A stretch of DNA of 64,000 bases, taken from Subsaximicrobium wynnwilliamsii (GTDB taxonomy: Bacteria > Bacteroidota > Bacteroidia > Flavobacteriales > Flavobacteriaceae). The first letter of the stretch is position 1; every line of letters begins with the position of its first letter. The stretch is from NCBI RefSeq assembly GCF_007997225.1, contig NZ_VORM01000005.1, positions 186,001 through 250,000 on the forward strand. Direction: 5' to 3'. Positions 6,783 to 11,555 of the stretch are shown piece after piece. The position numbers and the translations under genes were made by a program. The notes beneath the pieces are model-generated. The model worked only from the letters and a program-made list of their open reading frames with translations. It ran no database searches and was not told the origin of the DNA.

Positions 6783-6907
6783 GCTCAAGGCTCAAAACTC
6801 ACCACTCACAACTCAAAGCTCAAGACTCAAAGCTCAAGGCTCAAAACTCAAAGCTCAAGACTCAAGGCTCAAAACTCAAAGCTCAAGACTCAAAGCTCAA
6901 AACTCAA
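6783..6907 (+). repeat. Heptanucleotide array (RCTCAAR)n
   Basis: Eighteen or so imperfect 7-bp units of the types GCTCAAG, ACTCAAA and GCTCAAA. The array runs into the 3' end of pxpC: the last residues and the stop codon (6897-6899 on the minus strand) are made of repeat units. Further left, 6690-6780 holds a degenerate related stretch built of GACTTAGGACGTAGGACTAA-like words. Confidence 0.9.
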
Positions 6908-7742
6908 ACCGAAGCTCAGCCCCAATATTCTTTTGCGCCAGTCGGTCGATGGCTTGCTCGCTAAGCTGAAGTACTCTGGGATAACCGCCCGTGGTTTGGC
7001 AGTCGCGCATCAAAATCACCAATTGCCCAGATGGCGTTAATTGCACGCTGCCCGGTAAGACCAGAGAAGTGAATATGGGTTCCAATTCATTTTCAAAGTG
7101 CTCGTTTAATTGATAAGCCATGCGGTTGCTGTCTTTTGACACTGTAAAGGTTTTGGAAGTAAGCGCACGTTGCTGGGTTTCGCTTAAGGCATCATATTCC
7201 GGGCCTTTGAAGACCTCGATGAGCTTCGTGTCAAAATGTGCAGTCGGTGTTTTTACCGAAGCTTTTTGCAATTGTTTGGGCAAGGTCTGTTCCTTAATAG
7301 GCAAACGCGTTCCTTTTTTTAATCTGAATTCGGCTGTAATATTGGCATACTGACTCCTACTGCCCATGACCAATTCGGTTTGGAAGCCTCCCAAAACCGC
7401 GAGATACCCTCTACAGCCCTTCTGCGCAGCACCAAATGTCAAGGTATCGCCAGCTTGAATGCGCAAGGCCATATTTTGTTTGACAGCGTGTTTATTAATT
7501 TTCAAATCGCTAACCGCGCCAGTAACACAAATCAAAGCATTGCTATGGCATTTTAAGTTTGGCCCCAAGAGCGTCCACTCCAAAACCGCAGCATCATGGT
7601 GGTTTCCTAAAATCAAATTGGCGAGTTTTGCCGAGTACTGATCCATCGCACCAGAATATGGCACACCAAATTGCTGCAGGCTAAAGCGCCCTAAATCTTG
7701 TATGCTGTCGTATAAACCTGCTTTTAAGAGCTCAATCATCAC
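6897..7742 (-). CDS. pxpC: 5-oxoprolinase subunit PxpC (KipA/AHS2 family)
   Basis: One of three subunits of the ATP-dependent 5-oxoprolinase that opens pyroglutamate to glutamate. The 281-residue protein shows the family start (GLYDSIQDLGRFSLQQFG... PYSGAMDQYSAKLAN), the core GSRSQYANITAEFR and the C-terminal block LVILMRDCQTTGGYPRVLQL. It overlaps pxpB by 11 bp, so the subunits should be co-translated. The final codons (RFEF) and stop lie in the adjoining heptanucleotide array, so the original C-terminus may have been slightly altered. Confidence 0.93.
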   Translation of the reverse strand: MMIELLKAGLYDSIQDLGRFSLQQFGVPYSGAMDQYSAKLANLILGNHHDAAVLEWTLLGPNLKCHSNALICVTGAVSDLKINKHAVKQNMALRIQAGDTLTFGAAQKGCRGYLAVLGGFQTELVMGSRSQYANITAEFRLKKGTRLPIKEQTLPKQLQKASVKTPTAHFDTKLIEVFKGPEYDALSETQQRALTSKTFTVSKDSNRMAYQLNEHFENELEPIFTSLVLPGSVQLTPSGQLVILMRDCQTTGGYPRVLQLSEQAIDRLAQKNIGAELRFEF

Positions 7743-8475
7743 TATTTTCGAATTCTAGGTTATAGCTTCCATTTTTTATGGCTTCGGAAATTTTAGCGTG
7801 TTCATCCAGATCTGTTGGATAAAACCGTACTTGGTCGCCAGCTCTTGCAAAACAAGGTGGCTCCTTATTAACATCAAATAGTTCCAACGGACAATTGCCA
7901 ATCACATTCCAACCTGCCGGACTCGCATTGGGATAAATCCCAGTTTGAGAACCGCCAATCGCCACCGCACCTTTTTCGATGCGTTGTCTTGGTTTTGATT
8001 TCCGCGGCACATGAAGCTGTTCCTCCAATCCGCCCAAGTATAAAAAGCCGGGTAAAAACCCAATAAAATAAACCGTATAAATCGCTTCGGAATGTCGCTT
8101 GATAATATCCGCAATGGATAGCTTTTTCAACTCGGAAATTTCAGCCAAATCCAATCCGAAGTGTTCGTGATAACACACGGGGATGTTCCATAGTTTTGTA
8201 TCTCCTTTTTCAGTAGAGACACAAGCCTCATAAATCTGTTTTAGGGCTGAAACTTCAGTATTGAGGTTGTCAATAGTGACATGGTAAGTAATTAATATCG
8301 AATTATATGCGTTAGCTACTTGAAGTATTTGTTTAGCATTGTTTTTAAGCAGTTCATTTTTGAAGTTTAGCACATCTTCGAGAATAATGCGATTGATTTT
8401 TGGAGGCCATTGCACCAAAATAGAGCGCTCAGTAAAGCGTTTATAAATCAGTTTAAAATCAGTTTTTTCCATCAA
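7732..8475 (-). CDS. pxpB: 5-oxoprolinase subunit PxpB (KipI/AHS1 family)
   Basis: The 247-residue subunit carries the diagnostic block GFLPGFLYLGGL (about 140-151), then VPRKSKPRQRIEKGAVAIGG and SPAGWNVIGNCP. It overlaps pxpA by 4 bp at its start and pxpC by 11 bp at its end. PxpB and PxpC together resemble a single split carboxylase-like domain and act with PxpA in cytoplasmic 5-oxoproline hydrolysis. In Bacillus the homologues were first described as the kinase A inhibitor KipI and its partner, but the full pxpABC gene set here favours the oxoprolinase role. Confidence 0.93.
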   Translation of the reverse strand: MMEKTDFKLIYKRFTERSILVQWPPKINRIILEDVLNFKNELLKNNAKQILQVANAYNSILITYHVTIDNLNTEVSALKQIYEACVSTEKGDTKLWNIPVCYHEHFGLDLAEISELKKLSIADIIKRHSEAIYTVYFIGFLPGFLYLGGLEEQLHVPRKSKPRQRIEKGAVAIGGSQTGIYPNASPAGWNVIGNCPLELFDVNKEPPCFARAGDQVRFYPTDLDEHAKISEAIKNGSYNLEFENSDD

Positions 8476-9209
8476 GACATAGTTATGTGATGTGCCATTA
8501 ATTTAGTTCGCAAATGCTCAAGATTTTCCACAACATTTTTGCCATCGCCATGCACGCAAAACGTATCGGCTTTCATGCTCACCTCTACCCCATCGCGGGT
8601 TCTTACTTTTCCCTCAGAGACCATGCGATACACCTGGGCAAACATCTCGTCCGGATTATGGATGAGCGCCTGTTCGTGAGTTCTGGCCACCAAAGATAAG
8701 TCTGCATTATAATGCCTATCGGCAAAAGCCTCGAACATGACTGGAACACCCTGCGCCTTGGCAACTTTGGCAATGACCGATTGATAAGGCGCATAAAGGA
8801 TGAAATTTCCGCCAAAACCTTTGACCACCTCCACCACTACTTTCGCTGTTGCCTCGTCTTTTGCTGCCAAATTGTATAAAGCGCCATGAGGCTTGACGTG
8901 GTGCAGGTTTCCGTTTTTCTGTTTTAGAATCGTCATCAAACTTTCGATTTGAAAGGTCAAACTCTTCCGCAGTTCTTCCGCAGGAATTTGCATGACTTTG
9001 CGCCCAAAATTAGCTTTATCTGGAAATGAGGGATGCGCTCCAATCTTGACCTGATGCCTTTGCGCCAAATCCACCACAGTTTCCATAGTTGCAAGATCGC
9101 CCGCATGAGCGCCACAGGCAATGTTGCAGGACGAAATCAAGGGCATGATGCTAGCTTCGTTGCCCATGCCTTCACCTAAATCACAATTGATGTCAATGCT
9201 ACTATTCAT
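8472..9209 (-). CDS. pxpA: 5-oxoprolinase subunit PxpA (LamB/YcsF family)
   Basis: The 245-residue protein opens with the family signature DINCDLGEGMGNE and SCNIACGAHAGD, followed by IGAHPSFPDKANFGR, VKPHGALYN, EAFADRHYNADLSLVAR and FCVHGDGKN, in the standard order. It is the polysaccharide-deacetylase-like barrel subunit thought to bind 5-oxoproline. It sits 5 bp downstream of the Nramp-like transporter gene and overlaps pxpB by 4 bp. Confidence 0.95.
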   Translation of the reverse strand: MNSSIDINCDLGEGMGNEASIMPLISSCNIACGAHAGDLATMETVVDLAQRHQVKIGAHPSFPDKANFGRKVMQIPAEELRKSLTFQIESLMTILKQKNGNLHHVKPHGALYNLAAKDEATAKVVVEVVKGFGGNFILYAPYQSVIAKVAKAQGVPVMFEAFADRHYNADLSLVARTHEQALIHNPDEMFAQVYRMVSEGKVRTRDGVEVSMKADTFCVHGDGKNVVENLEHLRTKLMAHHITMS

Positions 9210-9214
9210 GCCTT

Positions 9215-10441
9215 CTAGATCAATTCAAATACCTTTAAAATACTTTTCGCCCCCAAAAAGAGCGCTATCGCTAAGATAAGAATTCCAAACACATTTTGAA
9301 TCGCTGTGTTTTTATACTTACCCAAAACAGCCGACTTGTTCATGATCCACAATAAAAATCCAGCGATGATTGGTAGTAACAATCCGTTGGCGACTTGGGC
9401 AAACTGGATGATTTCGATCGATTTAAAACCTATTGAAGAAAATAGCACGCCCAAAACCAAAATGAACATCCAAACCGCTTTGAAACCTTTGGAGGTCATT
9501 TGAGAATCCCAGCCCAAACACCCCGTCGCCACATAAGCTGCAGCCAAAGGCGCTGTAATGGCACTGGTAATGCCTGCTGCAAAGAGACCAACGGATAAAA
9601 AGTATGAGGCGTAATTGCCAAAAAATGGCTCTAAGCCTTTGGCCAGGTCTGCGGCATTGTCAACCTGAGCATCTTTTATTGCTGCAGCAGAAATGATAAT
9701 GCACATTGACACAACCCCTCCCAAAACCACTGCGATTATGGTGTCTTTTCGAGCGAATTTCAAATCAGAGGTTTGAGTCCATTTTTCCTTAACCAGTGAG
9801 GCATGCAAGAATAAGTTATAAGGTACAACCGTAGTGCCAACCAGCGCAATAATGGTTAAAATGCTCTCACTGGACACCTTGGGAACAAATAAGCCTTCAA
9901 GCACCAAACCTAAATCTGGCTTGGTCAAGATCGCAGTGACCAAAAACGCGACACTCATCACTATGACCAGTGAAATGAGTGCCCTTTCAAGTATTTTATA
10001 ATTTCCCAAATAGAGTATTACGAAAGCGATGACGCCAATACTGAGGCTCAATGCATTCAGTTTTAAAGCGCCGATCTGCAATGTGGGATTTCCTATTAAA
10101 GTCTCCAAACCCAACACGCTACCACTGATGTTTCCTGCTTCGTAAGCGGCGTTTCCTACGACAATGGCAGCTAAAATGAGAAGAATGGCTAAGGTTCTTA
10201 GAATTGGGTTTGAGATTTCGGTTCTTATGACTTCCGACAATCCTTTTTGCGACACAATGCCCAGACGTGCCGACATTTCCTGCAGCACCACCGTTGCCAG
10301 AATAGATAGCAACATTGCCCAAAGCAAGGCAAAGCCAAAATTAACGCCTGCCAAGGTGCATACTGTAACCGTTCCTGGACCAATAAACGCAGCAGCAACC
10401 AAGGGTCCTGGGCCAATATTTTTAAACCAGTTTCTAATCAC
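9215..10441 (-). CDS. Nramp-fold transporter with non-canonical metal site
   Basis: A 408-residue, roughly 11-helix membrane protein of the Nramp (SLC11) fold. Two metal-binding signatures of true Nramp transporters are changed. Helix 1 DPGN reads GPGT (residues 21-24), losing the Asp and Asn ligands, and the helix 6 MPH reads VPY (206-208), losing the Met and His. The general helix 1 and 6 context (GPGPLVAAAF, NLFLHAS) is kept. It lies 5 bp upstream of pxpA and overlaps the DUF2891 gene by 8 bp. Family annotation would say divalent metal transport. The context and lost ligands suggest uptake of 5-oxoproline or a related acid instead (inference). Confidence 0.9.
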   Translation of the reverse strand: MIRNWFKNIGPGPLVAAAFIGPGTVTVCTLAGVNFGFALLWAMLLSILATVVLQEMSARLGIVSQKGLSEVIRTEISNPILRTLAILLILAAIVVGNAAYEAGNISGSVLGLETLIGNPTLQIGALKLNALSLSIGVIAFVILYLGNYKILERALISLVIVMSVAFLVTAILTKPDLGLVLEGLFVPKVSSESILTIIALVGTTVVPYNLFLHASLVKEKWTQTSDLKFARKDTIIAVVLGGVVSMCIIISAAAIKDAQVDNAADLAKGLEPFFGNYASYFLSVGLFAAGITSAITAPLAAAYVATGCLGWDSQMTSKGFKAVWMFILVLGVLFSSIGFKSIEIIQFAQVANGLLLPIIAGFLLWIMNKSAVLGKYKNTAIQNVFGILILAIALFLGAKSILKVFELI

Positions 10442-11555
10442 GCGCTACCGAATTTAGCGCATAAAGTGCAAAACTGCCCAACCAGTGACCGCCTTCATAA
10501 CTATCGCCCACAATGCTGGGCAATGAGTAGTTGATATGTTGATTGGCGATATTTTGAAGATGTGCATACTCCGGCAAATCCCTCGAAATTTCGTTTAGGC
10601 TCCAGGCCCTTGAGAAATTCACGCCATCGAGATGCACCAGTTTTCCATCGGTTCTATCACTTACTTTTCCAGTATCTAGTGTAAATTTTTCATCTTTTAA
10701 CTGCGGAAGGAAATCGGACAACCAATTTTTAAATTCATCCATCGGAAGCACCCGCTTCATCAAGGCAGCTTCCTCAAAGCAGGGCGACAAGAAATCGAAT
10801 CCGCTTGGCTCCCAACTTAAGGGACAGGCAGCATCTTTGAGATAAAAATCCTTTGCACGTTGCTCTATGAGTGATTTTAATTGTGAATTCCCAACAGTGG
10901 TTGCATAATCGTGGGCGAATGAGAGTCCGAAGGCTGTATTGGGATGCTCTCCAACACGAATTGGGTAGTTCAGCTTCGGAAGGAATGCTTCATAGTTTGC
11001 AACCATTAGCTCTGTAAGTGGCTGTAGATTTTGCTCCAACTGTCTCGCCAGTGGGTCGTCCCAGGTATGCAGCTCTTCCGCAAGTTTAAGCAGCCAGGCC
11101 CAACCGTAAGTGCGCTCGTAAGTTGCATTGTGCTTTCCGTAGAAATAATCGACTTCGGCTTTGATGTTGGCTTCAGACATAGTTTCCAAAAGCATTTTCT
11201 CAATCGCTGCTCGATTTTCCAATTCTGGAAACTGCTTCAAAAGGTTAACCAAACTCCAATGTCCATGCACGGAAGAATGCCAATCAAAACAACCATAAAA
11301 CGCAGGATGCAAGGTTTTGGGCGATTGTAAATCGGCCTCACTCCCGATGGTTTGATTGAGCTTGTTTGGGTATTCGGTTTGGATGCAATTGAGTGGTAAC
11401 TGCGCTAAGCGATTTGCTTGTTCTAAATTGATTATAGGCGTTTTGGCGACTTCCATTTGAAGTTTTTGTTGATTAGCTGTTGTTTGCTTTTCTTCGGAAG
11501 TATTGCAGTTGAAAAGTGTAAGTGTTAGAAGGATAAGAAGCAATTGTTTTTTCAT
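10434..11555 (-). CDS. DUF2891 lipoprotein, first gene of the pxp operon
   Basis: The 373-residue protein has a lipoprotein signal (LLLILLTLTLFNC, Cys about residue 17), so it should be anchored in a membrane facing the periplasm. The conserved core reads HPAFYGCFDWHSSVHGHWSL (about 103-122), and further His/Trp/Glu-rich motifs follow (YGWAWLLKLAEEL, HDYATTVGN, GGHWLGSFALYAL), as in DUF2891. The predicted fold is all helical. No function is established that I know of. Its last 8 bp overlap the Nramp-like gene, which ties it to 5-oxoproline metabolism, for example as an enzyme releasing or binding the substrate outside the cytoplasm. Confidence 0.88.
   Translation of the reverse strand: MKKQLLLILLTLTLFNCNTSEEKQTTANQQKLQMEVAKTPIINLEQANRLAQLPLNCIQTEYPNKLNQTIGSEADLQSPKTLHPAFYGCFDWHSSVHGHWSLVNLLKQFPELENRAAIEKMLLETMSEANIKAEVDYFYGKHNATYERTYGWAWLLKLAEELHTWDDPLARQLEQNLQPLTELMVANYEAFLPKLNYPIRVGEHPNTAFGLSFAHDYATTVGNSQLKSLIEQRAKDFYLKDAACPLSWEPSGFDFLSPCFEEAALMKRVLPMDEFKNWLSDFLPQLKDEKFTLDTGKVSDRTDGKLVHLDGVNFSRAWSLNEISRDLPEYAHLQNIANQHINYSLPSIVGDSYEGGHWLGSFALYALNSVARD

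Follow-up and report, generated by a model that had tools for sequence, protein, structure and literature searches.

What does an Nramp-family carrier transport when its gene lies among those of a 5-oxoprolinase and its metal-site residues have changed? A locus of Subsaximicrobium wynnwilliamsii raises this question: in a 64,000-nt stretch of contig NZ_VORM01000005.1 (GCF_007997225.1), termed the window and used for all coordinates here, five minus-strand genes run from 11555 to 6897 and encode, according to open reading frames (ORFs) and Pfam matches, a DUF2891 lipoprotein, an Nramp-family carrier, PxpA, PxpB and PxpC. The carrier most likely imports 5-oxoproline (pyroglutamate) rather than a metal and, judged on genomics, its substrate is probably 5-oxoproline or a near lactam. 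The general idea of an Nramp relative for 5-oxoproline is already published for other Nramp relatives (YcsG and PxpT); in the literature searched, neither the double enzyme partnership of the present clade nor its connection to DUF2891 was found. Published accounts conflict, with Nramp relatives from pxp operons called either manganese importers (MumT, MntG) or 5-oxoproline importers (YcsG, PxpT), and a clade combining a wholly changed metal site with two unrelated lactam-type ring-opening partners provides a clean test case.

A changed metal site in an Nramp fold

The carrier gene (9215..10441, minus strand; 408 aa, GTG start; Pfam Nramp, 303 bits) encodes GPGT (G21, T24; 10370..10381, minus strand) at the break in transmembrane helix 1 (TM1), where metal-transporting Nramps have DPGN, and VPY (V206, Y208; 9818..9826, minus strand) instead of MPH at the TM6 break. 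The loss of four metal-site residues, already claimed in the original prediction and read here from the DNA, is uniform across the window's clade: the four columns are G, T, V and Y in 45/45 rows, two of them haloarchaeal, versus D, N, M and H in 9/9 canonical rows. The middle residue of the TM6 motif is P in 95% of the clade, with G in the two haloarchaeal rows. In TM3, the column corresponding to E134 of DraNramp, matched by hand from the PDB sequence alignment of the window protein, is N in all 45 clade rows (N104 in the window) and E in all nine canonical rows. Canonical Nramp/MntH proteins such as DraNramp thus have the fold and helix breaks in common with the window carrier, but differ in carrying DPGN/MPH and E134 in place of GPGT/VPY and N.

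Superfamily membership is indicated by the Pfam Nramp domain together with the Nramp fold, and both helix breaks are present in the predicted model. The best PDB sequence match (2.4e-36) is 7qia, the Nramp-related magnesium transporter EleNRMT, which also has a non-canonical Nramp fold but, in our reading of the alignment, retains the TM1 aspartate. With its canonical substrate residues and the glutamate at the E134 position gone, the carrier could also be a sensor instead of a transporter (a transceptor or an inactive paralogue); this is very improbable for a full-length protein with 41 invariant columns across the 43 rows of alignment A4 (rows picked by motif) and both breaks in its model. 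Binding between the broken TM1 and TM6, the substrate of a 5-oxoproline importer would be a small lactam acid and not a divalent metal ion. If so, the clade would offer a way into the question of how the site of a LeuT-fold protein changes between metal ion and organic acid.

Linkage to two unrelated families of ring-opening enzymes

In 148 evenly drawn Bacteroidota genomes, matches to the Nramp family were found in 94, to LamB_YcsF in 35 (34 above cut-off) and to Hydantoinase_B in 23. The window's clade is present in 24 genomes, all encoding pxpA, which lies within 3 kb of the carrier gene in 21 and elsewhere in the genome in the remaining three. A sister GPGT/VPY group occurs in ten genomes, in eight of which HyuA-HyuB or an OPLAH fusion is encoded no more than 4 kb away, while the other two have pxpA elsewhere. 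PxpABC or HyuAB/OPLAH is therefore encoded in 34/34 GPGT/VPY genomes, versus 56/148 overall (hypergeometric 6e-19, uncorrected for kinship), and carrier and enzyme genes are within 4 kb of each other in 29 of the 34. Since the same G, T, V, Y set is found in the sister group beside a different enzyme, the motif alone is no marker of pxp linkage.

Conversely, a glycine-motif Nramp (GPGT/VPY or GPGF/GGY) is present somewhere in 31 of the 34 pxpA genomes; in the other three none was found among the Nramp matches read. None of 32 ORFs with canonical DPGN/MPH is linked, most being judged on only ~1.5 kb of flank, and in the five genomes with both a canonical Nramp and pxpA, comparison by eye puts the two 763 kb apart (G033) or on separate contigs (the other four). 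This set also has five GPGF/GGY genes adjoining pxpA, which were retrieved on that ground.

Recurrence of the pxp linkage, on which the original prediction depended, extends beyond this sample. A scan of the genomes of 84,980 species confirmed at least 593 relatives; among the best 80 of these, counting contigs that end early as misses, pxpA is downstream in 75 (within 300 bp in 74) and DUF2891 upstream in 56 (53 within 300 bp, three at ~3 kb). A wider draw of 395 genomes, with matches to the clade alignment taken at E<=1e-60 and linkage defined as same strand and <4 kb, gave 78 genomes with a match (65 GPGT/VPY, 2 GPGS/VPY, 10 GPGT/VTY and 1 GPGT/VAY). The GPGT/VPY genes are near pxpA (37), near Hyu/OPLAH (15) or near neither (13), and both GPGS/VPY genes are near Hyu. 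Among the 13 unlinked genes, one (G282) is 0.6 kb from an OPLAH gene on the opposite strand, and two are ~5 kb from part of OPLAH (G171) or of pxpA (G320); for the rest, neither enzyme was found in the flanking stretch examined. Two loci have the Nramp gene and pxpA separated by an unrelated gene on the opposite strand (L033, 5199-5939; L177, 7258-8343).

At one locus (L068) the Hyu-type neighbour combines Hydantoinase A and B in a single protein, and at three others (L079, L083, L113) it consists of separate subunits, as recognised by Pfam. Haloarchaeal plasmid homologues from Haladaptatus (51.2% identity) and Haloferax gibbonsii (49.2%) have GPGT/VGY and directly precede HyuA and HyuB, while near a plasmid homologue of Qipengyuania citrea neither enzyme was found. 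S. wynnwilliamsii itself also has a gene for a Hydantoinase_B protein (515 bits), located on a different contig (C33) from the Nramp gene. From retention of the carrier while its partner is swapped for an unrelated lactam-type ring-opener, we infer that a lactam is the shared substrate, an argument that would be independent of the site residues.

Nramp relatives of pxp operons and the case for metal

The Nramp-family matches in the 148 genomes were in large part, though not completely, read with flanks and scored at the motif columns, giving separate types: canonical DPGN/MPH; DAGG and DPSG; GTGS, GVSH and others; GPGF/GGY; and GPGT/VPY. A quick tree was built from 119 rows, 81 of which form the GPGT superclade. 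Support in the Shimodaira-Hasegawa-like approximate likelihood ratio test is 98 for that superclade and 100 for each of the canonical and GPGF/GGY groups, the latter sitting on a very long branch. Identity of the window protein to the Bacteroidota members of its clade is at least 48%, falling to 32-39% for the sister GPGT group, 24-28% for canonical rows and 21-26% for GPGF/GGY rows. Although GPGT/VPY and GPGF/GGY are separate clades in this tree, the approximately unbiased test gives p = 0.42 for a joint clade with the whole superclade and p = 0.495 when the two pxp-linked clades are taken by themselves (46-row tree), so that the tree, from which YcsG and PxpT sequences are absent, does not show separate origins for them. 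A third branch of the superclade has GPGT/VTY (10 rows) or VAY (1), 0/11 being linked to pxp or Hyu; one VTY gene (L247) directly follows what appear, from our reading of the translations, to be 2-oxoacid:ferredoxin oxidoreductase genes.

YcsG, PxpT and PxpG (of B. subtilis, C. glutamicum and C. difficile) are, like the window carrier, Nramp-related and encoded with pxpABC, and from operon partner rather than from their own sequences we place them in the GPGF/GGY clade. For YcsG this is because the operon is shared with ycsI, which we take to belong to the D-Glu cyclase family seen beside GPGF/GGY genes. The listed identity of YcsG model 9a52 to the window protein (23%) rules out the window's clade and the sister group as its home, though not the canonical one. 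Growth of C. glutamicum on 5-oxoproline requires PxpT, a phenotype that was complemented, and YcsG is stated to be needed likewise (PMC13274462, partial text); terms for an uptake assay or a labelled substrate do not occur in the portion of that text available. A second account renames YcsG as the manganese importer MntG, puts the earlier 5-oxoproline result down to possible polarity, and reports repression by MntR of the promoter of the operon that YcsG shares with ycsI (PMC10448178, partial text). Deletion of A. baumannii MumT, reported as a manganese importer, lowers manganese (inductively coupled plasma mass spectrometry) and is complemented in trans (PMC5050338, partial text). MumT resembles the window carrier in being Nramp-related and in its operon, but its homologue in strain X4-300, assumed to be MumT because of the species and the neighbouring genes, has the motifs GPGF/GGY, without the TM1 aspartate, at a locus with pxpA, pxpB and pxpC homologues. 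Manganese uptake, set out beforehand in the original prediction as evidence against it, is thus reported for two presumed members of the other pxp-linked clade, not for the window's.

Several points weigh against import of 5-oxoproline by the window carrier. The reports on MumT and MntG describe manganese importers from pxp-type operons, and the A. baumannii homologue suggests that loss of the aspartate need not exclude an effect on metal; no experimental work on the window's clade, transport assays included, was found in the literature. The genomes surveyed are related, so the hypergeometric value overstates independence. Neither enzyme is nearby in 24 of the 78 wider matches (13 GPGT/VPY, 11 VTY/VAY), and some unlinked superclade members may carry other substrates; the HyuAB neighbours could be hydantoinases, pointing to hydantoins; and DUF2891 occurs in only 17 of the 148 Bacteroidota genomes, beside this carrier in six.

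One alternative raised by these points is a divalent-metal importer that uses different ligands and supplies the oxoprolinase or its partners. MntR control in B. subtilis would fit it, as would the fact that no second Nramp-family match was found in the window's own genome (4.9 Mb, 132 contigs searched). It is nevertheless unlikely: all four metal-site positions are changed with replacements fixed across the clade, aspartate 56 of DraNramp is reported to be strictly required for manganese, the partner enzyme is either PxpABC or the unrelated HyuAB/OPLAH, and PxpT has a complemented 5-oxoproline phenotype. A different small organic compound (hydantoin, glutamine or some other amino acid or lactam), with 5-oxoproline breakdown secondary, has an equally small chance of being the true substrate, the nearby enzyme being a 5-oxoprolinase for 37/43 Bacteroidota rows of the window's clade. 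Mhp1, a LeuT-fold carrier of a different family, transports hydantoins, which are five-membered cyclic amides.

The window carrier passes the NCBIfam model 'Nramp family divalent metal transporter' (92.1 vs 50 bits), a name that the evidence suggests is misleading here; the original prediction that such labels are wrong probably applies to the window's clade, with some weight left to a metal role by the MumT and YcsG/MntG reports. The observation behind that prediction is right and beyond chance, and its proposal of a LeuT-fold carrier for 5-oxoproline or a similar acid is probably right as the best reading on genomics, with precedence belonging to YcsG/PxpT. Its term 'repurposed' fares less well, presupposing a metal-carrying ancestor: a 2026 preprint describes Nramp relatives as paraphyletic with respect to canonical Nramps, so that the glycine motif may predate the metal site, and it places MntG in a 'G-motif 3' group, with NRMT-like proteins characterised and other Nramp-related groups uncharacterised (PMC12873925, partial text).

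DUF2891 and a putative salvage module

The first gene of the locus (10434..11555, minus strand; 373 aa; Pfam DUF2891, 461 bits) encodes a lipoprotein with lipobox ...LTLFNC (Cys17 at 11505-11507), assigned to DUF2891 (PF11199) by profile and fold, the predicted structure being a helical barrel resembling C. jejuni Cj0554. It overlaps the Nramp gene by 8 bp, and a 5-bp gap separates the latter from pxpA (8472..9209; LamB_YcsF, 295 bits), followed on the same strand by pxpB (7732..8475; CT_C_D, 222 bits) and pxpC (6897..7742; CT_A_B, 257 bits). With the listed TTG/GTG starts, pxpA/pxpB and pxpB/pxpC overlap by 4 and 11 bp; a start at the next codon, an ATG in both genes (8472 and 7739, respectively), would reduce this to 1 and 8 bp. 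The ORFs bear out the serial arrangement described previously. All three subunits are recognised by Pfam. PxpB (172 vs 145.55 bits) and PxpA (276 vs 226 bits, subfamily model) exceed their NCBIfam cut-offs, while PxpC is below those of the PxpC equivalog (188.6 vs 500 bits) and TIGR00724 (226.1 vs 230.2 bits).

DUF2891 adjoins DUF969-DUF979, a proposed 5-oxoproline transporter, in five of eight plasmid loci read, in one of which a hydantoinase/oxoprolinase gene lies alongside; DUF979 was found in 0/148 Bacteroidota genomes. DUF969-DUF979 and the window carrier thus belong to different protein families but have linkage to DUF2891 in common, and in many genomes, though not in every one, DUF2891 looks like a component of the module; the original prediction had treated the lipoprotein simply as a neighbour. 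On Klebsiella plasmids (L195, L270), a GPGF/GGY Nramp gene is found with pxpA, a PF07286 (D-glutamate cyclase family) gene and one of urea amidolyase type; on L270, DUF969, DUF979 and DUF2891 also occur as a set, at a distance of ~9 kb from the Nramp gene.

What is observed comprises the order of the genes, the residues lost, a predicted fold, recurring linkage to enzymes of two unrelated families, and the tie between DUF2891 and DUF969-DUF979; from these we infer the substrate, the direction of transport, its coupling ion, co-transcription and every activity of the module. The five genes would form one salvage module, in which the carrier would bring 5-oxoproline in from outside the cytoplasm, PxpABC would open its ring with ATP to give glutamate, and the lipoprotein would act outside the inner membrane on 5-oxoproline or a precursor. 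A possible source is the N-terminal pyroglutamate reported on most Sec-exported, signal-peptidase-I-cleaved Bacteroidetes proteins (Q-rule; PMC10653852, partial text). Tentatively, and with more doubt than confidence, this may be extended to a Bacteroidota pyroglutamate salvage system in which DUF2891 is a new enzyme supplying 5-oxoproline on the outer side of the inner membrane, whether released from the pyroglutamyl peptides of Q-rule proteins, converted from its D form or obtained otherwise, and the lactam is imported by a clade of Nramp relatives. In such a system the carrier (GPGT or GPGF Nramp, or DUF969-DUF979) and the ring-opener (PxpABC or HyuAB/OPLAH) would be interchangeable parts. 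DUF2891 would then gain a pathway.

At the far end of the locus, a tandem array with a 7/14-base unit (GCTCAAA; 18 copies of the 7-mer) occupies 6783-6908 and reaches the 3′ end of pxpC.
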